Part shown: positions 30,335 through 43,936 of the stretch, piece after piece
How positions within the stretch are numbered: position 1 is the first letter of the stretch
How the letters are laid out: every line of letters begins with the position of its first letter
Source: Burkholderia sp. BCC0322
Lineage (GTDB): Bacteria; Pseudomonadota; Gammaproteobacteria; Burkholderiales; Burkholderiaceae
Length of the DNA: 64,000 nucleotides
Reading direction: 5' to 3'
Assembly: GCF_902833045.1 (NCBI RefSeq)
Contig: NZ_CADFDU010000001.1
Location: 248,001-312,000, forward strand
The notes under the pieces: generated by a model
Told to the model about the DNA's origin: nothing
Databases searched by the model: none
The model's input: the letters and a program-made list of their open reading frames with translations, nothing else
Translations under genes and position numbers: made by a program

Positions 30335-31474
30335 TCAGAACATGTGCCGGACGCCGACCATCGCGCCGAGCTGCCCCATCCCTTCGCCGGGCGTCGTGCC
30401 CGGGCCGCCGCCGCTGACCGCGTAGCGTGCATGCGCGCTGTTCCACAGGTACGACGATTGCGCATAGACGGCCGTGCGCTTGGTCAGCAAATAGGTCGCG
30501 CGCAGCGTCGCCATCGTCGCGCGCGTGTCGTGCGCGCTGTTGACGATCCGGTAGCCTTCGCCGTCGACGACGAAATCGGGCTTCACCGCGTACGACGCAC
30601 CGACGAAGAACAGGTCCGAATGCGCGCCGGGCGCGGCCGGCGAACCGGTCGACACGCGCCGGCCGATCCAGCCCGCGCCGATCTTCGCGCCCGCCGCCTG
30701 CGCGTAGGCGCTCACGTGCGTGCGCGCGTCCTTGCCGCCGCTGCTCGTGAAGGCGACCGGCGCGACGCCGTCGAAGAAATTCGCGGCCGCGCCGGTGCCG
30801 CCGCGCTGCTCCTCGTACGACGCCGCCGCGCCGAAATACGCGCTGTCGTACTTGAGCATCACCGACCAGTTGCGGCACTGGAGCGTATCGCCCGGCACCT
30901 GCCCCGCGCACGTGCCCTGCCCCGGCGAGTTGCCGGTGCCCGCGCCGTCGCGGCCGAACGAATACGCGGCGCCAAGCGTCACGCCACGGTACGTGCCGAT
31001 GTAGGTCGCCGCGTTGTCGGCGCGCCCGTTCGGCACATATGCGTCGAACGAGCCGAGCCCGTAGATGTCGGGGCCGATGATGTCCGCGCCCTGCAGCGCG
31101 AGGTACGTCATCGTGTACTGGCGGCCGAACGCGAGCGTGCCGAAGCCGCCCTTCAGCCCGACGAACGCCTGCCGCCCGAACAGCCGGCCGCCCTGCCCGA
31201 GATCGCCGCCGCGCACGTTGAAGCCGCTCTCCAGCGTGAAGACCGCCTGGTAGCCGCCGCCGAGATCCTCCGCGCCGCGCAGCCCCCAGCGCGACGGCAG
31301 TTCGCCGGTCACGGCCGGCATCCGCACCACGTGGTCGCCGGCCGCGTTCGCGTGCGACACGAACTCGACGCCCGTGTCGATGATCCCGTACAGCGTCACG
31401 CTCGATTGCGCGTGCGCGCCGGTCGAGGCCAGCGCGCATGCGCCGGCCGCCAGCAAGGCTTTGGTGTGCTTCAT
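30335..31474 (-). CDS. Gram-negative trimeric porin (Burkholderia type)
   Basis: 379 residues. Signal peptide ending near residue 22 (ALASTGAHA), then a 16-strand porin: SSVTLYGIIDTGVEFVSHA start, WGLRGAEDLGGGYQAVFTLESGFN (about 63-86), FGRQAFVGLKGGFGTLAFGRQ (about 99-119), and a terminal aromatic strand ending HMF, the outer-membrane assembly signal. Between the MFS permease and the esterase in one operon; it probably lets hydroxycinnamates or their esters cross the outer membrane. Specificity cannot be read from the sequence. Confidence 0.93.
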   Translation of the reverse strand: MKHTKALLAAGACALASTGAHAQSSVTLYGIIDTGVEFVSHANAAGDHVVRMPAVTGELPSRWGLRGAEDLGGGYQAVFTLESGFNVRGGDLGQGGRLFGRQAFVGLKGGFGTLAFGRQYTMTYLALQGADIIGPDIYGLGSFDAYVPNGRADNAATYIGTYRGVTLGAAYSFGRDGAGTGNSPGQGTCAGQVPGDTLQCRNWSVMLKYDSAYFGAAASYEEQRGGTGAAANFFDGVAPVAFTSSGGKDARTHVSAYAQAAGAKIGAGWIGRRVSTGSPAAPGAHSDLFFVGASYAVKPDFVVDGEGYRIVNSAHDTRATMATLRATYLLTKRTAVYAQSSYLWNSAHARYAVSGGGPGTTPGEGMGQLGAMVGVRHMF

Positions 31475-31541: not shown

Positions 31542-32747
31542 TCAGTCGTGTGCCTGCGGCCTGCGGATCAGCACCAGCGCCGCGACGGCGGCGACCAGCG
31601 TGACGGGGATGCTCGCGCCGATCACGACCGACGCGCTGCGCCCCATCGCGAGCAGCTCGGCGGCCGCGAGCGGGCCGACCACGGAGCCGAGCCGGCCCAC
31701 CGCAACCGCCGAGCCGACGCCGGTGCCGCGCATCGCGGTCGGGTAGTAGATCGCGGCGAGCGCATACAGCACCGACTGGCCGCCGACGACGAACATCCCG
31801 GCCGCGAACGCGGCGGCGGACAGCCACACGAGGCCCGGCGCGATGGCGAGCGCGGCGAGCGACAGCACGATCCCCGCGTACATGCCGCCGACGACCCGCG
31901 ACGGCCGCATCCGGTCCATCGACATGCCGATGCCGAGCACGCCGAGGCCGCTGCCGATGTTGAAGAAGATCTGCACGATCCCGGCCTGGCTGCGCGCGAG
32001 CCCCTTCGCCGCCATCAGCGACGGCAGCCAATTCAGCAGGAAATACAGCACGATCAGCGTGCAGAAATAGCTGAGCCAGAGCGCCAGCGTCGTGCCGGTG
32101 CGCGAACCGCCGAACAGCGTGTGCGCGACGCCCGGACGCGCGCCGCCCGATGCGTTGACGTCGAGGAACGCGCGCGATTCCGGCAGCAGCGCGAGCAGCA
32201 GCGGGGCAAGCAGCAGCGGCCCGATGCCGCCGACGTAGAAGATGTGCCGCCACTCGGTGTCGCCGGCCAGCAGCACGCCGATCAGCGACGCGATCACGCC
32301 GCCGAACGGAATCCCGCAGTACATCACGGCCACCGCGCTGCTGCGCGAGCGCGAGTCGACCGCTTCGGACGACAGCGCAATGAGGTTCGGCATCGCACCG
32401 CCGAGGCCGAGGCCAGTGAGCGCGCGCACGACGACCAGCATCGCGAAGCTCGACACCTGCGCGGTCGCGATCGACAGCAGCCCGAACAGGCAGACCGACG
32501 CGATCAGCACGTGCTTGCGGCCGATCCGGTCGGCGAGCCAGCCGCCGAGCATCGCGCCCGGCAGCAGGCCGAACGTGCCGGCGCTGAACGCGAGTCCCAT
32601 CTGCGAAACCGTGAGCCCGAACTCGTGAGCCATGCGCGGCGCGGCAACGCCGACCGACTGCAGGTCGAGCCCCTCGAGCAGCGCGATCGCGAAACACAAA
32701 CCGAGCGTCGTCGCGACGGCCGGCCTCTCGGCAACGGAAGTGTCCAT
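31542..32747 (-). CDS. MFS permease of the aromatic-acid:H+ symporter (AAHS) family
   Basis: 401 residues, about 12 predicted membrane segments with the AAHS signatures LEGLDLQSVGVAAP (motif with the conserved Asp in helix 1), GWLADRIGRKHVL (loop 2-3 motif, about 70-82) and MPNLIALSSEA in helix 4. The family carries 4-hydroxybenzoate, vanillate and protocatechuate-type acids with protons. GGAG precedes the ATG; an upstream ATG 26 codons away overlaps the operator and is disfavoured. First gene of the MFS-porin-esterase operon, with the palindromic operators at 32830 and 32922 just upstream. Confidence 0.9.
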   Translation of the reverse strand: MDTSVAERPAVATTLGLCFAIALLEGLDLQSVGVAAPRMAHEFGLTVSQMGLAFSAGTFGLLPGAMLGGWLADRIGRKHVLIASVCLFGLLSIATAQVSSFAMLVVVRALTGLGLGGAMPNLIALSSEAVDSRSRSSAVAVMYCGIPFGGVIASLIGVLLAGDTEWRHIFYVGGIGPLLLAPLLLALLPESRAFLDVNASGGARPGVAHTLFGGSRTGTTLALWLSYFCTLIVLYFLLNWLPSLMAAKGLARSQAGIVQIFFNIGSGLGVLGIGMSMDRMRPSRVVGGMYAGIVLSLAALAIAPGLVWLSAAAFAAGMFVVGGQSVLYALAAIYYPTAMRGTGVGSAVAVGRLGSVVGPLAAAELLAMGRSASVVIGASIPVTLVAAVAALVLIRRPQAHD

Positions 32748-32829
32748 GTCGTCTCCAAACCTTGTACTGCGCGTCATGCCGGGACGCATGCGCGGCGTCT
32801 TTGTCGTGATCGGACCATGCATCATAAAT

Positions 32830-32846
32830 TATCAGGTAGCCTGATT
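32830..32846. promoter_or_regulatory. 17-bp palindromic operator, copy 1
   Basis: TATCAGGTAGCCTGATT, about 83 bases upstream of the MFS start. It is one of four copies of the same element in the ferulate island and is inferred to be bound by the MarR-type regulator encoded next to it. Confidence 0.72.
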
Positions 32847-32921
32847 CATTGTCCGAAATAAAATCCGCTCGACCAGCCGGTCATGCGGACCGTCATCCCA
32901 TCGAAGGACGGGACGATTTAA

Positions 32922-32938
32922 TAACAGGTAACCTGATA
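32922..32938. promoter_or_regulatory. 17-bp palindromic operator, copy 2
   Basis: TAACAGGTAACCTGATA, one mismatch in the left arm. Together with copy 1 it forms a pair, centres 92 bp apart (roughly nine helical turns), before the MFS-porin-esterase operon. Confidence 0.72.
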
Positions 32939-33033
32939 TTTCAAGTGTGCGGTGCGCCGGTGTTAACCCGCAACGCACGCGGAAGCCGGCCGGGCAAGGC
33001 CGTGCGGAACGACGAGTGAAGCGAACGTGTGGT

Positions 33034-33558
33034 TCAGTCGCGCAGGTTGCGCACGAACAGCTCGAGCGTGCGCTGGACCTGCGCGGCGTCGGCGGCGGTG
33101 AGGTCGTCGCCGAGCATCCGCCGTTCGAGCGGCCGCAGCACCCGTTCGCATTCGCGCAGGATCGCCGAACCTTCGTCGGTCAGGCGCAGCAGGATCACGC
33201 GGCCATGATTCGGATCGGCCTCGCGCGTGACGAAACCTCGCGCCGCCATCGCGACCATCACCTCGTTGGCGGATTGCGGCGTGATGAACGAGCGCACCGC
33301 GAGCTGCGCATTGGACAGCGCGCCGCGCGCCTCGAGCACCGACAGCGCCGTGTATTGCGCGAGCGTCACGCCGAGCGGGGCGAGCGCATCGCTCATCTGG
33401 CGGCGCAGCAGCCGATCGAGATTGCCGATCAGGTAGGTCAGCCGCTGCTGGGCACGCATGGGCGGCCTGGCCTCGGTGGCACGGGCAGCGCGTTTCGCGC
33501 CGGCCGGTTTGACGGGAGTCGAACTCATGAAGGTGTCGGGAGGAATATCGCGGGCCAT
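33034..33558 (-). CDS. MarR-family regulator of the ferulate island
   Basis: 174 residues. Winged-helix MarR core at about 35-170: LTYLIGNLDRLLRRQMSDALAPLGVTLAQYTALSVLEARGALS, then SFITPQSANEVMVAMAARGFVTREADPNHGRVILLRLTDEG (recognition helix and wing). MarR proteins of ferulate pathways (for example FerC/FerR-type) respond to feruloyl-CoA or related thioesters; that ligand is inferred. Start by GAGG four bases before the first ATG; a second ATG ten codons in has no ribosome site. Divergent from vanR, with an operator copy in between. Confidence 0.85.
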   Translation of the reverse strand: MARDIPPDTFMSSTPVKPAGAKRAARATEARPPMRAQQRLTYLIGNLDRLLRRQMSDALAPLGVTLAQYTALSVLEARGALSNAQLAVRSFITPQSANEVMVAMAARGFVTREADPNHGRVILLRLTDEGSAILRECERVLRPLERRMLGDDLTAADAAQVQRTLELFVRNLRD

Positions 33559-33622
33559 CTTACCTCACGCGGCCCGCATGGCGGACAGGCTCGCATCGCC
33601 TGATTCGTGGCGACCGGCGCAC

Positions 33623-33630
33623 TGTATACA
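33623..33630. promoter_or_regulatory. Candidate VanR half-operator (GTATAC type), copy 1
   Basis: TGTATACA, a perfect 8-bp palindrome of the type bound by many FCD-class GntR regulators, upstream of vanR. A second copy lies 85 bp downstream. Confidence 0.45.
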
Positions 33631-33707
33631 ACATCAGCCCGCCTAGCAGGTTTCGCTCGTGGTTTACCCGCTGATTTGCACGATTCAACTTGAACACACG
33701 GCAGCGA

Positions 33708-33715
33708 TGTATACA
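33708..33715. promoter_or_regulatory. Candidate VanR half-operator (GTATAC type), copy 2
   Basis: TGTATACA, five bases before the MarR-type palindrome at 33720, so the two regulators could compete at this promoter. Confidence 0.45.
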
Positions 33716-33719
33716 ATTT

Positions 33720-33736
33720 TATCAAGTAACCTGATA
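33720..33736. promoter_or_regulatory. 17-bp palindromic operator, copy 3
   Basis: TATCAAGTAACCTGATA, in the marR/vanR divergent promoter, 49 bases before the vanR start. It would give MarR autoregulation and couple vanR-vanA-vanB to the ferulate regulon. Confidence 0.72.
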
Positions 33737-33784
33737 ACTCCGCACGCCTGCCCCGGCAATGCGGCACTGCCCCCGATATCCGCC

Positions 33785-34552
33785 ATGACCGACCTCGACG
33801 CTCCGACTTCCGACACCCGCGCCGCTTCCCCGTCGCAAACGGTCCGCACGCTGCTCGGCCTGCGCGAGCTCATCGTCGGCGGAGAGCTCGCGCCCGGTGC
33901 ACGCATTTCCGAACTGTGGGTCGTCGAGCGGCTCGGCGTATCGCGCACGCCGGTTCGGGCGGCGCTGATCCGGCTTCAGGAGGAAGGGCTGGTCGAGCCG
34001 ATTTCGACCGGCGGGTTTGCGGTGCGCGCGTTTTCGGCGCGCGAGATCGGCGATGCGATCGAACTGCGCGGCACGCTCGAAGGGCTCGCCGCGCGGTTCG
34101 CGGCCGAACGCGGCGTGCCGCCGTCGATGCTGCACGGCCTGCACGCGTGCGCCGACGAGATCGACGTGCTGCTCGCCGGCCCGCTGACCGACGACACGTT
34201 CTCGCGCTACGTCGACGCGAATGCCCGTTTCCACCGGCTGCTCGCGGCAGCGGCCGGCAGCGACGTCGTCGCGCGGCAGATCGACAAGGTCGCGACGTTG
34301 CCGTTCGCGTCCGCGAGCGCGTTCGTCGTCGTGCAGTCGCTCGATCCGCGCGCGCGCGAAACGCTGATCGTCGCGCAAGCCCAGCATCGCGCGGTGCTCG
34401 ACGCGATCGAACGCCGCCAGGGCGCGCGCGCCGAAGCGCTGATGCGCGAACACGCGCAGATCGCGCACGACAACCTGCGGCGCGTGCTCGACAGCCAGCG
34501 CGCGATGACGAAGCTCAAGGGCGGCAACCTGATTCGCCGCGACGCCGGCTGA
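33785..34552 (+). CDS. vanR: GntR/FCD regulator of vanillate demethylase (VanR-like)
   Basis: 255 residues. FadR-class GntR: winged helix at about 18-85 (TVRTLLGLRELIVGGELAPGARISELWVVERLGVSRTPVRAALIRLQEEGL) and an FCD effector domain (about 95-245; EIGDAIELRGTLEGLAARFAAERG, HRLLAAAAG). It precedes vanA by 86 bases on the same strand, the arrangement of vanR-vanA-vanB, where VanR represses until vanillate binds. Start at the ATG heading the conserved region; the longer frame upstream runs through the operators. The name is a context-based assignment. Confidence 0.82.
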   Translation: MTDLDAPTSDTRAASPSQTVRTLLGLRELIVGGELAPGARISELWVVERLGVSRTPVRAALIRLQEEGLVEPISTGGFAVRAFSAREIGDAIELRGTLEGLAARFAAERGVPPSMLHGLHACADEIDVLLAGPLTDDTFSRYVDANARFHRLLAAAAGSDVVARQIDKVATLPFASASAFVVVQSLDPRARETLIVAQAQHRAVLDAIERRQGARAEALMREHAQIAHDNLRRVLDSQRAMTKLKGGNLIRRDAG

Positions 34553-34638
34553 CCGGCGCGCGGCACCTTCGCGCGGCGCACGACGCGCCGCTCATCCGAC
34601 GATAGACACGGCGTGGGGACACGCCATGGAGGAGACGC

Positions 34639-35682
34639 ATGTTCCTGAAAAACGCGTGGTATGTGGCCTGCACGCCGGACGAATTCGCCGGCAAGCCGCT
34701 GGGGCGGCAGATTTGCGGCGAACGCATGGTGTTCTTTCGCGACGCGGACGGCGCGGTCGCCGCGCTCGAGGATTTCTGCCCGCACCGCGGCGCGCCGCTG
34801 TCGCTCGGCACCGTGCGCGACGGCCGGCTCGTGTGCGGCTATCACGGGCTGACGATGGGCGCGGACGGCAAGTGCACGAGCATGCCGTGCCAGCGTGTCG
34901 GCGGCATTCCGGCGATCCGCCGCTATCCGGCCGTCGAGCGGCACGGCTTCGTGTGGGTGTGGCCGGGCGACCCGGCCCAGGCCGATCCGGCGGCGATCCA
35001 CCCGCTCCACTGGGCCGACGATCCGGGCTGGGCGTATGGCGGCGGCCTCTATCACATCGACTGCGATTACCGGCTGATGATCGACAACCTGATGGACCTC
35101 ACGCACGAGACCTACGTGCATGCATCGAGCATCGGGCAGCCGGAGATCGAGGAAGCGCCGCCCGCAACCAAGGTGAACGGCGACACGGTCACGACCAGCC
35201 GCTTCATGGAAGGCATCGTGCCGCCGCCGTTCTGGGCTGCCGCGCTGCGCGGCAACGGGCTCGCCGACGACGTGCGCTGCGATCGCTGGCAGATCTGCCA
35301 TTTCACGCCGCCGAGCCACGTGATGATCGAAGTGGGCGTCGCGCATGCGGGCAAGGGCGGCTATCACGCAGACCCGCGCGACAAGGTGTCGAGCATCGTC
35401 GTCGATTTCATCACGCCGGAAACCGAGACGTCGATCTGGTACTTCTGGGGGATGGCGCGCAGCTTCGCGGTGGACGACCGCGCGTTGACCGAGACGATCC
35501 GCAACGGGCAGGGCGCGATCTTCGCCGAGGATCTCGACATGCTCGAAGCGCAGCAGCGCAACCTGCTGCGCTGGCCGGACCGGCCGCTGCTGAAGCTGAA
35601 CATCGACGCGGGCGGCGTGCAGTCGCGACGCGTGCTCGACCGATTGATCGACCAGGAGCGCGCCGCCGCGCTGCCGTGCTGA
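34639..35682 (+). CDS. vanA: Vanillate O-demethylase oxygenase subunit
   Basis: 347 residues. Rieske [2Fe-2S] site CPHRGAPLSLG...CGYHG with Cys47, His49, Cys66 and His69, and the mononuclear iron site DNLMDLTHETYVHASS (about 155-170) with Asp/His ligands. This arrangement, with PDEFAGKPLGRQICGERMVFF at the start, is that of VanA, which oxidatively removes the methyl of vanillate to give protocatechuate and formaldehyde. GGAGG precedes the ATG. Part of vanR-vanA-vanB; VanB supplies electrons. Confidence 0.95.
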   Translation: MFLKNAWYVACTPDEFAGKPLGRQICGERMVFFRDADGAVAALEDFCPHRGAPLSLGTVRDGRLVCGYHGLTMGADGKCTSMPCQRVGGIPAIRRYPAVERHGFVWVWPGDPAQADPAAIHPLHWADDPGWAYGGGLYHIDCDYRLMIDNLMDLTHETYVHASSIGQPEIEEAPPATKVNGDTVTTSRFMEGIVPPPFWAAALRGNGLADDVRCDRWQICHFTPPSHVMIEVGVAHAGKGGYHADPRDKVSSIVVDFITPETETSIWYFWGMARSFAVDDRALTETIRNGQGAIFAEDLDMLEAQQRNLLRWPDRPLLKLNIDAGGVQSRRVLDRLIDQERAAALPC

Positions 35683-35738
35683 CCGCATGCCGCGCCGCCG
35701 CCGCATGGCGGCGCGGCACGCCTACTTCACCCTTCCCC

Positions 35739-36725
35739 ATGAAAGTCACGCTCATCCGCAAACTTCCCGTCGCGACCGACATCTGCGCGTTCGAACTCGC
35801 GCCGGCAGACGGCGCGGCGCTGCCGCCATTCACGGCCGGCGCGCATATCGACGTCCACGTCGGCGGCTTCGTCCGCCAGTATTCGCTGTGCAACAGCCCG
35901 TCGGAGACGGGCGTCTACCGGCTCGGCGTGCTGCGCGAGCCCGCGTCGCGCGGCGGCTCGCTCGCGATGCACGCATGCGAGCCCGGCACGACGCTCGACA
36001 TCAGCGCGCCGCGCAACCACTTCCCGCTCGACCCGCGTGCCGCGCACACCGTGCTGCTCGCGGGCGGCATCGGGATCACGCCGCTGCTCAGCATGGCCGC
36101 GCACCTGATCGACACCGGCCAGTCGTTCGAGCTGCATTACTGCGCGCGCGAGCCGGCACGCGCCGCGTTCCTCGACCGGCTCGACGCGCCCGGGCTCAAG
36201 GCCCGCACGCGGCTCTGGTTCGACGATGCGCCGGACGGCCGGCGCATCGATTTCGCGCAGGTGCTCGCGAAGCCCGATGCGGGGACGCATCTGTACGTGT
36301 GCGGCCCCGGCGGGTTCATCGGCGCCGTGCTCGCGGCGGCCGCGCAGGCCGGCTGGGATCCGGCGAACGTGCATCGGGAGTATTTCGGTGTGGCCGGCGT
36401 AGGTGCGGCCAACTCAGGCGTGGACGCCGCAGCCGCCCCGGGCGAAGAGGGAGGCGACCAGGCGTTCCAGGTATCGCTCGCGCAATCGGGCCGCGTCGTC
36501 GACGTGCCGGCCGGCACGACGATCGTCGAAGCGCTGCGCGGCTGCGGAATCGAGGTGCCGGTGTCGTGCGAGCAGGGCGTGTGCGGCACCTGTCTCACGC
36601 GCGTGCTGTCCGGCACGCCCGATCATCGCGACGTCTACCTGACCGACGACGAACGCGCGGCCAACGATCAGATGCTGCCGTGCTGTTCACGCGCGGTCTC
36701 GCCGCTGCTGGTGCTGGATCTGTGA
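35739..36725 (+). CDS. vanB: Vanillate O-demethylase reductase subunit
   Basis: 328 residues. Class IA oxygenase reductase: FMN/NAD domain first (FTAGAHIDVHVGGFVRQYSLCNSPSE about 30-56; LLAGGIGITPLLSMAAHL about 107-124) and a plant-type [2Fe-2S] ferredoxin domain at the C-terminus (GIEVPVSCEQGVCGTCLTRVLSG then a late CC pair, about 268-320). Passes electrons from NADH to VanA. Starts 56 bases after vanA and is the end of the operon; a strong hairpin follows. Confidence 0.94.
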   Translation: MKVTLIRKLPVATDICAFELAPADGAALPPFTAGAHIDVHVGGFVRQYSLCNSPSETGVYRLGVLREPASRGGSLAMHACEPGTTLDISAPRNHFPLDPRAAHTVLLAGGIGITPLLSMAAHLIDTGQSFELHYCAREPARAAFLDRLDAPGLKARTRLWFDDAPDGRRIDFAQVLAKPDAGTHLYVCGPGGFIGAVLAAAAQAGWDPANVHREYFGVAGVGAANSGVDAAAAPGEEGGDQAFQVSLAQSGRVVDVPAGTTIVEALRGCGIEVPVSCEQGVCGTCLTRVLSGTPDHRDVYLTDDERAANDQMLPCCSRAVSPLLVLDL

Positions 36726-36733
36726 AAGTGCGT

Positions 36734-36754
36734 GCGGCGCGGCGGACGCGCCGC
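36734..36754. terminator. Terminator hairpin between vanB and acd
   Basis: GCGGCGCG / CGCGCCGC, 8-bp stem and 5-base loop, in a 40-base gap between two convergent genes. No T-tract; the stem and position suggest a shared terminator. Confidence 0.45.
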
Positions 36755-36765
36755 CCGCCGCCCGT

Positions 36766-38544
36766 TCACGCCGACGGCCGGCTTTGAGCCCCGGCAACCG
36801 GCAACGACGCCCGGCACCCGGCCTCGACGAGCGCGAGCCGATGCGCGAACGCCGCCAGCGGATAGTCGAAGAAGTAAGCGCCGAGCGCGCGCTTGTCCGT
36901 GCGGAACGGATCGTCGCACGGCGCGTCGCCGACGATGCGCAGCGTGCGCGCCCACGCGAACGCGAGCAGCAGCCACCCGAGCAGCGCGAGATAGTCGTCC
37001 GCGACGCGATACGGCAGATCGGGTTCGACCGCGCTCGTGCGCATTACGTCGGCTGTCACGCGTTCGACGTCCGCGCAGCACGCGGCGACCCGTGCGCCCG
37101 CATCCCGCACGCGCTCGCCCGTACTATCGACACAGCGCGCCGCCTCCGCCCGCACGAGATCGAGCAGCATGCCGAGCGCTTCGCCTCGATCGGCCAGCAC
37201 CTTGCGCACCAGCAGGTCGATCGCCTGGATCTCGTTCGTCCCTTCGTAGAGCATCGACACGCGGCAATCGCGCACCGTCTGCTCGATCCCGTATTCGTGG
37301 ATGTAGCCGTACCCGCCGAACACCTGCAGCGCGTTCGACGCGGCCGCGAATCCGTTCGCGGTGAAAAACGCCTTCGCGACCGGCGTGAGCAGCGACGCGA
37401 GCCGCGACGCGGCCTGCCGCCGCGGCAGCTCCGGATCGTGCGCGGCGATGTCGAGCCCGTGCGCGATCCAGTAGCCGATCGCCCGCTCGCCTTCGACGAT
37501 TGCTTGCGCGTCGAGCAGGATGCGGCGGATTGCCGGGTGCGCCGCGATCGGCGCCGCCGTGCCGGCCGCGCGCCCTTGCACGCGTTCGTGCGCATAGGCC
37601 GACGCGGCCTGCCACGCGCTTTGCGCATGCCCGACACCCTGCATCGCGACCTGCAGCCGCGCGGCGTTCATCATCACGAACATCGACGCGAGGCCGCGAT
37701 GCGGCTCGCCAACGAGCCAGCCGACAGCCTCGTCGAAGCGCATCGCGCAGGTCGGGCTCGCCTTCAGTCCCATCTTTTTCTCGATGCCGTCGCACCAGAC
37801 GCCATTGCGCTCGCGCCCGGCCGGGCCGTCGCGCCACTTCGGCACGACGAACAGCGACAGGCCTTTCGTGCCCGCCGGCGCATCGGGCAGCCGCGCGAGC
37901 ACGAGGTGCACGATGTTGTCGGTCAGGTCGTGCTCGCCGCCGGTAACGAACAGCTTGCTGCCGCTGATCCGGTAGCCGCCGACGGCCGGATCGGGCACCG
38001 CCCGCGTGCGCAACAGGCCGAGATCGCTGCCGGCCTGCGGCTCGGTCAGGCACATCGTCGTCAGCCATTCGCCACTCGCTATCTTGGGCAGCACGTCGCG
38101 CTTCAACCGCTCCGAGCCGTGCGCGCGCAGGCACGCGACCGCGCCGTGCGTGAGCCCCGGCGACATCAGCCACGCATGGTTCGCCGCGGCAAGCATTTCC
38201 TGCAGCGCGACGTCGAGCAGATGCGGCAGGCCCTGCCCGCCGCAGTCCGGATCGAGCGCGAGTGTCGGCCAGCCGGCGTCGACGTAGTCGCGATACGCGT
38301 CGCGAAAGCCGTCCGGCACCGTCACGTCGCCACGGTCGAACCGGCAGCCGTCGAGATCGCCGCTCGCGTCGAGCGGCGCGATGCGCCCGGTCACGAAGCG
38401 CGCGGCCTCGTCGAGCACCTGCTGCGCGATCGACGCATCGAGATCCGTCCATTCGGGCACGCGGCGCCACAGCGCCGGTGCATCGAGCCATTCGTCGATC
38501 ACGAACAGCATGTCGCGCAGCGGCGCGCGATATCCGGTACTCAT
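36766..38544 (-). CDS. acd: Acyl-CoA dehydrogenase of the ferulate operon
   Basis: 592 residues, longer than housekeeping acyl-CoA dehydrogenases and matching the long branch (about 590-600) found beside feruloyl-CoA genes in Pseudomonas. Core motifs: LTEPQAGSDLGLLRTRA (about 166-183), YRISGSKLFVTGGEHD, AVGWLVGEPHRGLASMFVMMNAARL, FGGYGYIHEYGIEQTVRDCRVSMLYEGTNEIQAIDLLVRK (about 410-450, FAD site and catalytic Glu in YEGTNEIQ). It may oxidise the side chain in an alternative, CoA-dependent route of ferulate breakdown; its exact step is not settled in the family. Last gene of ech-vdh-fcs-acd, ten bases after fcs. Confidence 0.88.
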   Translation of the reverse strand: MSTGYRAPLRDMLFVIDEWLDAPALWRRVPEWTDLDASIAQQVLDEAARFVTGRIAPLDASGDLDGCRFDRGDVTVPDGFRDAYRDYVDAGWPTLALDPDCGGQGLPHLLDVALQEMLAAANHAWLMSPGLTHGAVACLRAHGSERLKRDVLPKIASGEWLTTMCLTEPQAGSDLGLLRTRAVPDPAVGGYRISGSKLFVTGGEHDLTDNIVHLVLARLPDAPAGTKGLSLFVVPKWRDGPAGRERNGVWCDGIEKKMGLKASPTCAMRFDEAVGWLVGEPHRGLASMFVMMNAARLQVAMQGVGHAQSAWQAASAYAHERVQGRAAGTAAPIAAHPAIRRILLDAQAIVEGERAIGYWIAHGLDIAAHDPELPRRQAASRLASLLTPVAKAFFTANGFAAASNALQVFGGYGYIHEYGIEQTVRDCRVSMLYEGTNEIQAIDLLVRKVLADRGEALGMLLDLVRAEAARCVDSTGERVRDAGARVAACCADVERVTADVMRTSAVEPDLPYRVADDYLALLGWLLLAFAWARTLRIVGDAPCDDPFRTDKRALGAYFFDYPLAAFAHRLALVEAGCRASLPVAGAQSRPSA

Positions 38545-38554
38545 CGTGCGCGCC

Positions 38555-40459
38555 TTACGCGCCGCGCGCCGCGCCGGCGACGATCACGCCGGCATCGGCC
38601 GCGTCGCGCGCATACATCGCTTCGACCACCGCCGCGCGCTGCGTCAGCACCGCGCGCTGGTTGATCGACCCCTTGTCGGTGATTTCGCCGAGATCGAGCG
38701 ACGGCGGCGTGTCGAGCAGGCACAGCCGCGTGATGAACGTCGCGCTGCCGGTCGCGTCGCGGTTCAGCCGCTGCAACAGGTCCGCAAAGAACGCGCGCAC
38801 GGCCGGCGCCTGCAGCACGGCGCGCACGTCGGCGTCCGGCCCCGCGCCCGCGAGGCGGCGGCAATCGTCGACGCGCGGGAAGATCATCGCGCCGACGTCG
38901 TCGCGATTCATCCCGGTCACGACCGCGTCCTGCACGTACGGCGCGCCGTTCGACACGATCCGCGCGCGCATCGGCCCGACGCTCACGAAGGTTCCCGTCG
39001 ACAGCTTGAAATCCTCGGCGATCCGGCCGTCGAACATCAGCCCGATCTCCGGACGCTGCGGGTCGACGAAGCGCACCGCGTCGCCGCTGCGGTAGTAGCC
39101 TTCGTCGTCGAACACCTCGCGCGCGTCGCCGCCGCTCGCGCGCCAGTAGCCGGCCATCACGTTCGGGCCGCGAAAGCGCGCCTCGAGCTTGCCGTCGACC
39201 GGCACCAGCTTCGCGTCGCAGCCGGGCGCGGGCAGGCCGATGTAGCCGGCGCCCGACATCGGCCCGGTGGTGAACATGCACGACGGCGCGGCCTCGGTCA
39301 TCCCGAGGCCCGCCATGATCCGGATGCGCTCGCCGCAGTGCGCGAGCGTCACGCGCTCGAGCCGGTCCCACGCGGCCTGCGACAGCCCCGCGCCCGCGAA
39401 GAAATACATCTTCACCCGCGAGAAGAAGGTCGCGCGCAGCGCCGCGTCCGTTTCGAGCGCGATGGTCAGCTCCTCCCAGCCTTTCGGCACGTTGAAGTAC
39501 ACCGTCGGCGCAATCTCGCGCAGGTTGCGCAGCGTCTCGTCGAACTTGCCGGCGACCGGCTTGCCATCGTCGATGTACAGCGTGCCGCCGTTGTACAGCG
39601 CAATCCCGACGTTGTGGCTGCCGCCGAAAGTGTGGTTCCACGGCAGCCAGTCGACCAGCACCGGCGGCTCGATGCCGAATTGCGGAAACGTTTCGAGCAG
39701 CATCTGCTGGTTGCTGCACAGCATCCGGTGCGTGGTCGGCACCGCCTTCGGCAGCCGCGTCGAACCGGACGTGAACAGGAACTTGGCGATCGTGTCGCCC
39801 GAGATCGCCTCGTGCGCGGCGTCGACGCTGCCCGGCGCGGTGTCGAGCAGCGACGCGAAGCGCGTGACGCCGCGCATCCCGTCCGGCGCCGACACGACCA
39901 CGCGCTCGACGTCGGGCCGCACCGTCGCATCGAGCGCGGCGCGGAACGCATCGCCATCGGCGGCAAACACGAGCCCCGGCGTCAGCAGCGCCAGCGCGTG
40001 ACGGAGCTTGCCGTAGTCGCTCGACACGAGCGAATACGCGGGCGACAGCGGCGCATACGGAACGCCGGCCCACATTGCGCCGAACGCCACCTGCAGGTGT
40101 TCGAGATCGTTGCCGGACAGGATCGCGACCGGCCGCTCGGCCGACAGCCCGCGATCGAGCAGCGCCTGGCCGATCACGCGCGCGCGTTCGAGCATCTGCG
40201 CATAGCTGATGCCGATCCACGCGCCGTCGGGGCCGCGCCGCGCGACGAGCCAGCGATCCGGGTGCGCTTGCGCACCGCTGACGAGCCGATCGGTCAGCCG
40301 ACGCGGATACGCGCCGAGCGCGGTCGATGCACACAGGGTCCAGCAGCCGTCGCGCTGCGCGATGTCGGGCGGTGCCGCACCGATCGCGACGGGGCGGTAG
40401 CCGGCAGGGGCGGGCTGCACGGCGGCAGTGCCGTGCAGTTGGGTCGGATCCGCATCCAA
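38555..40459 (-). CDS. fcs: Feruloyl-CoA synthase
   Basis: 634 residues, AMP-forming adenylate-forming enzyme. Motifs: FLFTSGSTRLPKAVPTTHRM (P-loop, about 228-247), AGLGMTEAAPSC (A5), YRSGDAVRF with the catalytic Asp (A7) and DGRIAEDFKLSTGTF (A8). The GLGMTEAAPSC/ED-FKL text is that of Fcs rather than long-chain fatty acyl-CoA synthases. It adds CoA to ferulate with ATP. The start is TTG with GGAG seven bases upstream. Follows vdh by 91 bases. Confidence 0.9.
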   Translation of the reverse strand: MDADPTQLHGTAAVQPAPAGYRPVAIGAAPPDIAQRDGCWTLCASTALGAYPRRLTDRLVSGAQAHPDRWLVARRGPDGAWIGISYAQMLERARVIGQALLDRGLSAERPVAILSGNDLEHLQVAFGAMWAGVPYAPLSPAYSLVSSDYGKLRHALALLTPGLVFAADGDAFRAALDATVRPDVERVVVSAPDGMRGVTRFASLLDTAPGSVDAAHEAISGDTIAKFLFTSGSTRLPKAVPTTHRMLCSNQQMLLETFPQFGIEPPVLVDWLPWNHTFGGSHNVGIALYNGGTLYIDDGKPVAGKFDETLRNLREIAPTVYFNVPKGWEELTIALETDAALRATFFSRVKMYFFAGAGLSQAAWDRLERVTLAHCGERIRIMAGLGMTEAAPSCMFTTGPMSGAGYIGLPAPGCDAKLVPVDGKLEARFRGPNVMAGYWRASGGDAREVFDDEGYYRSGDAVRFVDPQRPEIGLMFDGRIAEDFKLSTGTFVSVGPMRARIVSNGAPYVQDAVVTGMNRDDVGAMIFPRVDDCRRLAGAGPDADVRAVLQAPAVRAFFADLLQRLNRDATGSATFITRLCLLDTPPSLDLGEITDKGSINQRAVLTQRAAVVEAMYARDAADAGVIVAGAARGA

Positions 40460-40550
40460 GGTCTGTCTCCAGTCGGTTCCGCCTGCGCGCTGGCAGCGCG
40501 CGGCGGAAACTTCATTGTGTCGTTGTCGGTGCCGCGATGCGGCGGCCCGC

Positions 40551-42002
40551 TCAGATCGGGTAGTGGCGCGGCGCGGTCTGCACGGTGATCCAGCGCAGGT
40601 CGGTGAATTCGGCGATCGACGCCTTGCTGCCGAACCGGCCGTAGCCGCTCGCCTTCACGCCGCCGAACGGCATCTGCGCCTCGTCGTGCACGGTCGGGCC
40701 GTTGATGTGGCAAATGCCCGACTCGATCCGCTTCGCGACCTGCATCGCGCGTGCGATGTCGCGGCTGAACACCGCGGCCGACAGCCCGTATTCGCTGTCG
40801 TTCGCGGCGGCAAGCGCCGCCTCGTCGCCGTCGACGCGCTGCACGGTCACGACCGGCCCGAACGATTCGTCCGCGTAGAGCTTCATGTCGCGCGTGACGC
40901 CATCGACGATCGTCGGCTGCATCACCGCGCCGTCCACTTCGCAGCCGAGCGGCAACGCCGCGCCGTGCGCGCGCGCGTCGGCGACCAGCGCCGCGATCCG
41001 CTGCGCGGCCGCCGCGCTTTCCAGCGTGCCGAGCACGACGCCCGGCGCGGCCGGGTTGCCCGCCTTCAGCGTACGCGCCTTCGCGACGAGCCGTTCGACG
41101 AATGCATCGGCGACTGTCCGGTCGACGATCACACGCTCGGTCGACATGCAGATCTGGCCCTGGTTGAAGAACGCGCCGAACGCGACCGCGTCGACCGCCG
41201 CATCGAGATCCGCGTCGTCGAGCACGAGCACCGGCGCCTTGCCGCCGAGTTCAAGCAGCGCCGGCTTCAGGTGCTGCGCGGCGAGCATCGCGACGATCCG
41301 GCCGACGCGCGTCGAGCCGGTGAAGTTGACACGCCGCACCGCCGGGTTCGCGATCAATCGTTCGACGATCGCGGGGGCATCCTGCGGCGCGTGCGTGATC
41401 ACGTTGACGACGCCGTCGCCGAGCCCCGCGTCCTGCAGCACGCTGCCGATCAGCCGGTGCACGCCCGGGCAGCCTTCGGACGCCTTCAGCACGACCGTGT
41501 TGCCGCACGCGAGCGGCATCGCGAGCGCGCGGGTCGCGAGAATCACCGGCGCGTTCCACGGCGCGATGCCGAGCACGACGCCGCACGGCTGGCGCACCGC
41601 CATCGCGAGGCTGCCCGGCACGTCGGACGGGATCACCGCGCCGTCGATCTGCGTCGTCATCGCGGCGGCCTCGCGCAGCATGTTCGCCGCGAGCATCACG
41701 TTGAAGCCGTACCAGTTCGCCATCGCGCCGGTTTCGGCACGGCCGGTCTCGATGAATTCGCCGGCGCGCGCGTCCATCCGGTCGGCCGCCGCGAGCAGCC
41801 GCCGGCGGCGCTCGGTCGGCGCGAGCGCCGCCCATGCGGGAAACGCGCGCGCGGCCGCCGCGACCGCGGCATCCGCATCGGCGAGCGTCGCCGCGGCGGC
41901 GCACGACGCCACCTGTCCCGTCGCCGGATCGATCCGGTCGAACGTGCCGCCATCCGACGCGCCGCGCGACACGCCGTCGATCAACAAACTCACTTCGTGC
42001 AT
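40551..42002 (-). CDS. vdh: Vanillin dehydrogenase
   Basis: 483 residues, NAD(P)-dependent aldehyde dehydrogenase. Glu251 in LELGGKAP, Cys285 in FNQGQICMS, and the cofactor loop GIAPWNAP (145-152) and FTGSTRVG (227-234) are intact. The MANWYGFNVMLAANMLREAAAM insert and the operon context point to the vanillin/benzaldehyde group. Oxidises vanillin, the aldehyde released by Ech, to vanillate for VanAB. Between ech and fcs on the minus strand, 42 bases after ech. Confidence 0.93.
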   Translation of the reverse strand: MHEVSLLIDGVSRGASDGGTFDRIDPATGQVASCAAAATLADADAAVAAAARAFPAWAALAPTERRRRLLAAADRMDARAGEFIETGRAETGAMANWYGFNVMLAANMLREAAAMTTQIDGAVIPSDVPGSLAMAVRQPCGVVLGIAPWNAPVILATRALAMPLACGNTVVLKASEGCPGVHRLIGSVLQDAGLGDGVVNVITHAPQDAPAIVERLIANPAVRRVNFTGSTRVGRIVAMLAAQHLKPALLELGGKAPVLVLDDADLDAAVDAVAFGAFFNQGQICMSTERVIVDRTVADAFVERLVAKARTLKAGNPAAPGVVLGTLESAAAAQRIAALVADARAHGAALPLGCEVDGAVMQPTIVDGVTRDMKLYADESFGPVVTVQRVDGDEAALAAANDSEYGLSAAVFSRDIARAMQVAKRIESGICHINGPTVHDEAQMPFGGVKASGYGRFGSKASIAEFTDLRWITVQTAPRHYPI

Positions 42003-42044
42003 TTCGCTGTCTCCGCTCAGTCCGGTTGCGTGCCGCGTCGCGCG

Positions 42045-42872
42045 TCAGCGCTTGTACGCCTGCAGGCCCGGCTTGATGCTCTTGTCGTCGAGGAACTGCT
42101 TGAGGCCCTGCTCGCGGCCGCCTTCCGGATCGCGGTAGTTCGCCTGGTCGAGCTTCGCGTACAGGTAGTCCTCGTTCTGCTCCCACGTCAGTTCGCGGCA
42201 GCGCTTGAAGCCGTGCTTCGCATTGCGGATCACGACCGGATTCTTGTCGAGCAGCTTCGCGGCGAGCGCCAGCACTTCGTCGCGCAGTTGCGCACGCGGC
42301 ACGCTCTTGTTGACGAGCCCCATCTTCGCGGCCTGCTGCCCGGTGAAGGTATCGCCGGTCATGATGTAGTACAGCGCCTCGCGATGCCCGACGGTATCCG
42401 CCATCGCCTTGCTGACGAGGTTGCCCGGCGGGATGCCCCAGTTGATCTCCGACAGCCCGAACACGGCTTCGTCGGCCGCGATCGCGAGATCGCACGCGAC
42501 GAGCGGCGAGAAGCCGCCGCCGAAACACCAGCCGTTGACCATCGCGATCGTCGGCTTCGAATACATGCGCAGCAGTTGCCACTGCCAGCGGCTCGCGTCG
42601 CGGCGGATCTTCTCCTGCAGGATCTCCGGGCCCGCGTCCACTTCGCGGAAATACTCCTTCAGGTCCATCCCGGCCGTCCAGGCATCGCCCTCGCCGGTCA
42701 GCACGAGCACCTGCGCCTCGGCGTCGAGCTCGACCGCTTCCAGCACGTCGATCATCTCCGTGTTCAGCGTCGGGCTCATCGCGTTGCGCTTGTCCGGGCG
42801 GTTCAGCGTAACCCACGCGATTCCGCCTTCGACCGTGACCTTCACCGTTTTCCAGCGACCTTCGTAACTCAT
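42045..42872 (-). CDS. ech: Feruloyl-CoA hydratase/lyase (hydroxycinnamoyl-CoA hydratase-lyase)
   Basis: 275 residues, crotonase fold. Very close to the HCHL family of Pseudomonas: the oxyanion motif near VNGWCFGGGFSPL (about 112-125), catalytic Glu142 in SEINWGIPPG, and the Tyr-rich EQNEDYLYAKLDQ (Tyr236/238). Hydrates feruloyl-CoA and splits it to vanillin and acetyl-CoA. Start chosen by GGAG seven bases upstream; an upstream in-frame ATG is within the promoter. First gene of ech-vdh-fcs-acd, with operator copy 4 about 50 bases ahead. Confidence 0.95.
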   Translation of the reverse strand: MSYEGRWKTVKVTVEGGIAWVTLNRPDKRNAMSPTLNTEMIDVLEAVELDAEAQVLVLTGEGDAWTAGMDLKEYFREVDAGPEILQEKIRRDASRWQWQLLRMYSKPTIAMVNGWCFGGGFSPLVACDLAIAADEAVFGLSEINWGIPPGNLVSKAMADTVGHREALYYIMTGDTFTGQQAAKMGLVNKSVPRAQLRDEVLALAAKLLDKNPVVIRNAKHGFKRCRELTWEQNEDYLYAKLDQANYRDPEGGREQGLKQFLDDKSIKPGLQAYKR

Positions 42873-42922
42873 CTTCGTTCTCCAATGACCGTGCCGCCCT
42901 ACGCGACTCGATGCCAATTTAC

Positions 42923-42939
42923 TATCAGGTAACCTGATA
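42923..42939. promoter_or_regulatory. 17-bp palindromic operator, copy 4
   Basis: TATCAGGTAACCTGATA, a perfect dyad about the central base, between ech and the divergent amidohydrolase gene. The best copy of the island-wide element. Confidence 0.75.
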
Positions 42940-43042
42940 TGTAAAGTAGAATGGAAGCGGCTCGGGACAAACCCCTAAACGGGCACGAACGCGCGGTTTC
43001 GCGCCGCGCGGCGCCTGCGTTTCACGACATGAGGAGACACGC

Positions 43043-43936
43043 TTGGACATCCGCAACCTGATCGCCATCGACACGCACGTGCATGCCGAAGTGTCGTGCT
43101 GCCAGCCGCCCGACCTGTTCGCGAAGGCATTCGACGATGCGGCCGACAAGTACTTCGGCACGGTGCTGAAGCAGGGCCGCCGGCCGACGATTCCGGAGAC
43201 GATCGCGTACTACCGCGAGCGTCGCATCGGCTTCGTGATGTTCACCGTCGACTGCGAGACGAACATCGGCCGGCGCCGCATTCCGAACGAGGAGATCGCG
43301 CAGTTCGCGCAGGAGAACGCCGACGTGATGATCGCGTTCGCGAGCATCGACCCGCACAAGGGCCGCTTCGGCGCGCGCGAGGCGCGCCGCCTGATCGAAG
43401 AACACGGCGTGAAGGGCTTCAAGTTCCACCCGACGATGCAGGGGTGCTTTCCGAACGACCGGCTCGCGTATCCGATCTACGAGGTGATCGCCGAATACGG
43501 GCTGCCGGCCGTGTTCCACAGCGGGCATTCGGGGATGGGGTCGGGCATGCGCGGCGGCGGCGGGTTGCGTCTGAAGTACTCCGAACCGATCCATCTCGAC
43601 GACGTCGCCGCCGACTTCCCGGACATGAAGATCGTGATCGCGCACCCGTCGTGGCCGTGGCAGGAGCAAGCGCTGTCGATCGCGCTGCACAAGCCGAACG
43701 TCTACATCGATCTGTCGGGATGGTCGCCGAAGTATTTCTCGCCGGAGCTGGTGAAGTACGCAAACACGCTGCTCAGGCACAAGGTGCTGTTCGCGTCGGA
43801 TTTTCCGCTGATCCGGCCGGATCGCTGGCTGGAGGATTTCCACGGCGCCGGGTTCCGGCCCGACGTGCACCCGCTGATCCTGAAGGACAACGCGGTGGCG
43901 TTACTGGGGTTGGGGCTCGACGCGCCGCGCGCGTGA
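43043..43936 (+). CDS. COG2159-type amidohydrolase of the ferulate island
   Basis: 297 residues, metal-dependent amidohydrolase/decarboxylase fold: DTHVHAE (His12, His14), GFKFHPTMQG (metal Lys/His region, about 134-143), VFHSGHSGMG and IAHPSWPWQ (metal His), ASDFPLIRPDR (metal Asp). The closest named relatives are ortho-decarboxylases such as gamma-resorcylate decarboxylase and 4-oxalomesaconate hydratase-type enzymes, so a role in aromatic acid turnover is plausible but the reaction is open. The start is TTG with GAGGAG six bases upstream. Divergent from ech and sharing its operator. Confidence 0.8.
   Translation: MDIRNLIAIDTHVHAEVSCCQPPDLFAKAFDDAADKYFGTVLKQGRRPTIPETIAYYRERRIGFVMFTVDCETNIGRRRIPNEEIAQFAQENADVMIAFASIDPHKGRFGAREARRLIEEHGVKGFKFHPTMQGCFPNDRLAYPIYEVIAEYGLPAVFHSGHSGMGSGMRGGGGLRLKYSEPIHLDDVAADFPDMKIVIAHPSWPWQEQALSIALHKPNVYIDLSGWSPKYFSPELVKYANTLLRHKVLFASDFPLIRPDRWLEDFHGAGFRPDVHPLILKDNAVALLGLGLDAPRA

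Follow-up and report, generated by a model that had tools for sequence, protein, structure and literature searches.

Probable operators of an HcaR/FerR-type MarR regulator in a ferulate gene cluster of Burkholderia sp. BCC0322

Control of hydroxycinnamate catabolism by MarR-family proteins has been described in several bacteria. According to the available portions of the reviews, HcaR of Acinetobacter ADP1 is a repressor of hydroxycinnamate catabolism induced by coenzyme A (CoA) thioesters, HcaR, FerC and CouR are all reported to be released by hydroxycinnamoyl-CoA, and ferulate genes are under the MarR-type regulators FerR in Pseudomonas fluorescens BF13 and FerC in Sphingobium SYK-6, for which feruloyl-CoA is the signal. 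CouR of Rhodococcus jostii RHA1 is a MarR repressor of p-hydroxycinnamate genes, acting at a promoter inverted repeat and induced by a CoA thioester (PMC4737184, in part), and in Agrobacterium fabrum a MarR protein (HcaR) and a VanR-group protein (Atu1419) divide the ferulate pathway between them (PMC7797058, in part). Here we analyse a window of 64,000 nucleotides of Burkholderia sp. BCC0322 (contig NZ_CADFDU010000001.1, positions 248,001 to 312,000), in which four copies of a 17-bp palindrome accompany a marR gene (33034..33558, minus strand) and genes resembling those of ferulate breakdown. From sequence comparison, we regard these palindromes as very probably the operators of this MarR protein, which would be a hydroxycinnamate repressor of the HcaR/FerR type governing a ferulate regulon. 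Other bacteria are already known to place gene sets of this kind under HcaR-type control, and the present case is mostly an ordinary one.

A close comparison by gene content is a stretch of an Acinetobacter indicus plasmid, which carries the same kinds of genes as the window: tannase-family esterase, porin, acyl-CoA dehydrogenase, feruloyl-CoA synthase, aldehyde dehydrogenase, ech, MhpT, MarR, GntR and van-type oxidoreductase and oxygenase. Its gene order differs and its MarR protein is 44% identical to that of the window. This plasmid, pAI01 (L141, NZ_CP044019.1), holds a ferulate-to-protocatechuate set including pca genes, with two transposase genes inside the stretch. FerR and FerC could be compared through reviews and without operator sequences. 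The CouR box, cATTGA-N5-TCAATg, lies over the -35 element (PMC4737184, in part), whereas the window sites are of the type TATCAGG-N3-CCTGATA and have another half-site. On plasmid pRoPD630_1 of Rhodococcus opacus PD630 (L144), palindromes of the type TATCAG-N5-CTGATA lie between ech and a gene for a 38% identical MarR protein, upstream of an acyl-CoA dehydrogenase gene and, in a form with one change, next to an IclR gene, so that a half-site core is shared across phyla. The A. fabrum pathway is beta-oxidative (review, in part), which is a further difference from the window. No paper giving the operator was found in our literature searches, which reached few subscription papers, and PMC6449761, which deals with the regulation of aromatic pathways in Betaproteobacteria, has none of the terms HcaR, MarR, hydroxycinnam, vanill and coumar in its accessible text.

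The palindrome and its probable regulator

A pattern search of the window with TATCAGGTAACCTGATA, allowing up to 3 mismatches, returned four places only: operator 1 at 32830-32846 (TATCAGGTAGCCTGATT, 2 mismatches), operator 2 at 32922-32938 (TAACAGGTAACCTGATA, 1 mismatch), operator 3 at 33720-33736 (TATCAAGTAACCTGATA, 1 mismatch) and operator 4 at 42923-42939 (TATCAGGTAACCTGATA itself), which reads as a perfect 8+1+8 palindrome. Being a near-palindrome, each site was matched on the minus strand as well. One hundred dinucleotide shuffles of the window, used as control, gave 0 matches at this threshold, and relaxing the search to 5 mismatches added a single place in the window, 22941, at 5. A preliminary description of this DNA had reported a perfect copy at 42923, copies with one or two changes at the three other places and no further copy in the window, all of which is borne out. 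It had also placed the copies at the promoters of an MFS-porin-esterase operon, a marR/vanR pair and an ech/amidohydrolase pair, and the gene context agrees, with two refinements. The promoter regions are three rather than four, since operators 1 and 2 (the latter 92 bp upstream of the former, start to start) both fall between the stop of marR (33034) and the MFS gene, and operator 3 is closer to the start of the GntR/vanR gene (33785) than to that of marR (33558).

Operator 4 lies within the 18-nt spacer of a promoter-like pair of ech, TTTACA-18-TAAATT (42916..42945, minus strand; -35 at 42945-42940, -10 at 42921-42916), which is identified by its match to the promoter consensus and by the flanking consensus of 70 ech promoters. 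The consensus around these 70 sites is CTTg..ATaTcAGGt..CCTGATAtTAAATgg, with the flanks CTTg..AT[site]tTAAAT; MFS matches of less than 60% identity were dropped from this comparison of promoters. When the window and 77 relative MarR loci are taken together, 70 of 73 ech matches have the site; two of the three others are cut at the locus end and one is a 30% match, and the ech genes of all three genomes, fetched later, each have it. The two remaining promoter-like pairs were identified by consensus match only. That of the MFS gene, CGGACA-16-GATAAT (32828..32855, minus strand), has its -10-like hexamer (32833-32828) overlapped by operator 1, and that of vanR, TTGAAC-16-TACAAT (33690..33717, plus strand), is followed by operator 3, which starts at 33720, directly past the -10-like hexamer.

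Site and regulator also occur together across genomes. In a sample of 200 Burkholderiaceae genomes, searched for the MarR protein at E up to 1e-15 and for TATCAGGN3CCTGATA with up to 1 mismatch, the protein is present in 74 and the site in 85, namely in 71 of the 74 genomes with MarR versus 14 of the 126 without (Fisher p 9e-36, a nominal value because related genomes are non-independent). The reversed-pattern control was unassociated with MarR (7/74 versus 13/126, p 1). The three MarR genomes without the site comprise one with marR on an 11.5-kb contig (G139), one with sites bearing 2 core mismatches (G191) and one in which marR has stop codons (G151). The fetched MarR loci contain 110 of the 119 sites found in the 74 genomes. 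Of the nine sites outside them, five were read (all but those of G102, G152, G193 and G199): four precede ech and one is inside an open frame. For five of the 14 MarR-less genomes with a site, the sites were inspected (L148 to L152); all five fall inside open frames of more than 150 residues. One sequence, CATCAGGAATCCTGATA, recurs among the MarR-less genomes, being listed in seven and read in three, in a gene that, judged by eye, appears to encode a transporter.

The same confinement is seen with the full 17-mer. At up to 3 mismatches, five Burkholderia genomes have 21 places, of which 18 were placed, all but three at 3 mismatches each (G001 C156, G002 C1, G005 C15): 17 are in the cluster and one lies before a second ech. 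This last one, the fifth site of B. cepacia LK29, is a perfect core operator before a second ech-vdh-fcs-acyl-CoA dehydrogenase cluster (L147 8639-14795, contig C90), whose ech is 90% identical and is also preceded by the GGGTTT box discussed below. A class-wide search with the window MarR (E up to 1e-15) found it in 1 of 369 genomes, G001 itself, and an order-wide search (E up to 1e-20) in 2 of 150, G001 and G629. In the latter the MarR protein is 42% identical and a TATCAGGTTGCCTGATA site stands between marR and ech. With an HcaR segment as query (E up to 1e-6), 7 of 369 genomes of the class gave matches, six of them weak.

The MarR protein itself matches Pfam MarR and MarR_2 and shares 99% identity with its B. 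cepacia LK29 counterpart. Its nearest match in the PDB is HcaR of Acinetobacter ADP1, both by sequence (E 2.7e-29) and by Foldseek E-value, where the first seven chains are all HcaR (query model with a predicted local distance difference test score, pLDDT, of 79). After proteins with internal stops or of at most 110 residues had been dropped, 80 MarR proteins were kept and 30 of them aligned; P94, Q95, A97, N98 and E99, at the start of the fourth helix of the model (94-106), are invariant in these 30. The A. indicus protein, outside this alignment, has PQSTNK at the corresponding stretch. The window marR is linked to ech, vdh and fcs on the gene map, and an ech match is present in 72 of the 77 relative loci, one of the 72 being the 30% match (L109); none was found in L069, L073, L077, L107 and L131.

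Proposed repression and induction, and the competing explanations

Beyond the sites, their positions, their conservation and their co-occurrence with the regulator, which are shown here, we favour a scheme in which the binding, the repression and the effector in this species are inferred. Without inducer, a MarR dimer would sit on TATCAGGN3CCTGATA at the three promoter regions and block RNA polymerase, from within the -35/-10 spacer at ech, over the -10 at the MFS gene and just after the -10 at vanR. The inducer would be a CoA thioester made by the first enzyme of the pathway itself (feruloyl-CoA, p-coumaroyl-CoA), and we propose that it releases the repressor because the protein is homologous to HcaR-type regulators. 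Release would turn on the MFS permease, the porin and the tannase-family esterase together with ech, vdh, fcs and the acyl-CoA dehydrogenase, and might extend to the amidohydrolase divergent from ech and, among close Burkholderia, to vanR-vanAB.

Expression data from a relative are consistent with this scheme. In the accessible part of PMC9701309, Paraburkholderia aromaticivorans growing on ferulate shows log2 fold changes of 11.36 for an MHETase-like esterase (RS20005), 11.5 for a porin (RS20010), 11.7 for a 3-(3-hydroxyphenyl)propionate (MhpT-type) transporter (RS20015), 9.6 for the hydratase-lyase (ech, RS20025) and 9.1 for vanillin dehydrogenase (RS20030), and strong induction of a 4-coumarate-CoA ligase (RS20035), whose value is printed as 89. 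By gene type and numbering, these genes match the esterase-porin-MFS and ech-vdh-fcs clusters of the window.

Several observations weigh against the proposed regulon or limit its reach. The MarR model superposes only loosely on HcaR (template modelling score, TM, of 0.54-0.57 by query, root-mean-square deviation 7.5-8.9) and other MarR chains reach a higher TM (7kua, 0.63), so that the Foldseek ranking by E-value leans on sequence. The site upstream of ech in A. indicus is half conserved, with 4 mismatches, so that the window sites are at most candidate counterparts of an experimentally studied HcaR operator. Operators 2 and 3 are outside the spacer position, and three of the 77 loci have no site at up to 2 mismatches. 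Of 68 MFS matches, 22 lack a site of their own; 19 of these are downstream of ech on its strand, so the ech site can serve most of them, and 3 are not. Finally, vanA of P. aromaticivorans is up by only 1.9 log2 on ferulate and vanB is down by 1.1 (PMC9701309, in part), and this strain therefore gives no support for a strong induction of the van genes.

Could another protein read the palindrome? The GntR/FCD VanR-like protein (33785-34552) is encoded divergently from marR, with operator 3 in its promoter, which would fit an operator of its own. However, 71 of the 77 fetched loci have no VanR match there (elsewhere in those genomes VanR was not searched for) and 68 of these 71 have the site at up to 2 mismatches; moreover, in all 8 aligned loci the vanR promoter bears two TGTATACA boxes, and the 17-mer is missing from two of these loci. 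On these grounds VanR was rejected as the binder, and we hold it to be very improbable. Still harder to credit is a structural role of the copies, as terminators or members of a short repeat family, suggested by the terminator-like stem scored at 32831-32845 on the minus strand. One such match in the region is at shuffle level (0.8), and the copies are few per genome, lie upstream of genes, are absent elsewhere in the window and are tied, across the 200 genomes, to the loci of one regulator; this reading was rejected.

A more serious question is whether the MarR protein is chiefly an activator or combines the two roles, in the manner of the Pseudomonas FerR, which the available text of a review lists as repressor and activator. 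The distal operator 2 would then be for activation, and paired sites upstream of the MFS gene do recur in Burkholderia, 59 to 106 bp apart from start to start. But operators within the spacer or over the -10 suit repression, and the distances between paired sites vary without a fixed helical phase, for which reason helical phasing of the two MFS sites was rejected. We judge a mainly activating or dual role unlikely. The ferulate regulon under the neighbouring MarR protein, as envisaged in the preliminary description, thus remains the best-supported reading, by virtue of the co-occurrence, the confinement of the sites, the spacer position at ech, the HcaR-like regulator and the ferulate induction in Paraburkholderia.

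In the palindrome, a large family of soil and plant-associated bacteria would then have a concrete candidate operator for sensing ferulate, of use in annotating lignin-monomer catabolism and in building feruloyl-CoA biosensors, and esterase, porin, permease and cytoplasmic side-chain cleavage appear as one regulon. Two further features of the promoters come to light as well, namely the operator found at vanR and the GGGTTT box found at ech.

The vanR promoter and the GGGTTT box

Between marR and vanR are two VanR-type TGTATACA boxes, 85 bp apart (33623..33630 and 33708..33715), which read CTGTATACAA and ATGTATACAA. TGTATACA is the core of ATGTATACAT, the palindrome bound by Atu1419, a tetramer of which can bridge two copies 190 bp apart (PMC7797058, in part). 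The window pair might support a DNA loop as well. The two boxes are found in 8 of 8 aligned loci, window included, and L109, outside the alignment and with a more distant VanR (70%), has one exact TGTATACA; no van matches were found at L057, L058, L059 (same genome as L002) and L005. In all six close Burkholderia loci (MarR at least 92% identical) the second box is followed by the 17-mer, with 1 core mismatch in four of them, 2 in L003 and 3 in L004, the last two being degenerate; in L060 and L063 the vanR promoter lacks it. This pattern, drawn from eight loci, suggests either a gain in one lineage or a decay in others. In the window the MarR-type operator is 4 bp from a VanR-type box, whereas Atu1419 did not bind the hcaR promoter in the gel shifts of PMC7797058 (in part).

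The second feature was revealed by conservation among ech promoters; like the VanR-type boxes, it does not figure in the preliminary description. The box, GGGTTTGTCCC in the window (42964..42974, minus strand), takes the form GGGTTT (loosely TNNGGGTTTRCACC). Of 70 ech promoters (loci L055-L131), 63 have it upstream of the operator, at a distance of 29 to 35 nt; two of the remaining seven have a match elsewhere and five have none. In these counts GGG[TC][TA]T was allowed, and MFS and ech matches below 60% identity were dropped. The form GGTTT[AG] is present in 44 of the 70 ech promoters and in 0 of 45 MFS promoters, against shuffle expectations of 3.7 and 0.9. The box is unlikely to belong to a divergent promoter, because tandem arrangements (L061, L080) have it too. 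At vanR, GGTTTACCC (33661-33669, plus strand) resembles the ech box and stands 29 nt upstream of the -35 element; the eight aligned loci have GGTTTACCC in five cases, CGTTTACCC in two and CGTATACCC in one, the last three having one or two changes.

Joining the two features, we tentatively suggest that the vanR promoter of close Burkholderia, with its pair of VanR-type boxes, has come under the ferulate repressor too. Feruloyl-CoA and the VanR signal would then form an AND gate, both being needed to open the second half of the pathway, with an activator at the GGGTTT box of ech (about -60) and perhaps at GGTTTACCC of vanR. Such an activator would take the control of the pathway beyond de-repression alone. 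We consider this proposal, as a whole, rather doubtful.

The longer pattern TNNGGGTTTRYMCCRAG has five places, all at ech, in 4 of 8 genomes. When 1 mismatch is allowed, the 8 genomes yield 25 places versus 7 for the reversed control, some of the 25 upstream of genes for a DctP-type transporter protein and an HPPD-family protein. As regards a possible global regulator acting through the box, the 11-base GGGTWTRCACC has 7 places in one 8.6-Mb genome and 0 for the reversed control; five fall within an open frame of 100 residues or more, and the two outside lie upstream of genes for a phasin and a DctP protein. Boxes of the GGGTATGCACC or GGGTTT type were also seen upstream of DctP-type, phasin and HPPD-family genes in Burkholderia (L162, L164, L165, L172, L168, L166, L167).

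Genes of the cluster

To the right of marR, on the plus strand, follow the GntR/FCD regulator (vanR-like, 33785..34552, both domains found), a vanA-like oxygenase (34639..35682) and a vanB-like reductase (35739..36725), the latter two named from order and relatives. Then, on the minus strand, come an acyl-CoA dehydrogenase (36766..38544, family match), an acyl-CoA synthetase resembling feruloyl-CoA synthetase (fcs, 38555..40459), an aldehyde dehydrogenase resembling vanillin dehydrogenase (vdh, 40551..42002) and a protein of the enoyl-CoA hydratase family resembling hydroxycinnamoyl-CoA hydratase-lyase (ech, 42045..42872), 84% identical to the A. indicus gene so annotated. The names vanA, vanB, vdh, fcs and ech rest on family, gene order and the annotated A. 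indicus cluster. Divergent from ech is an amidohydrolase gene (Amidohydro_2, 43043..43936, plus strand, family match), a putative member of the regulon.

To the left of marR, all on the minus strand, are an MhpT-like MFS permease (31542..32747, the start at 32747 being our choice in a frame open to 32825), a porin (Porin_4, 30335..31474, family match) and a tannase/feruloyl-esterase family protein (PF07519, 28585..30306, family match). In NCBIfam, searched with ten proteins, the permease alone passed a curated cut-off (MhpT) among the matches listed. The N-terminus of the tannase-family protein, judged by eye, resembles a lipoprotein signal with a lipobox-like LAGC.

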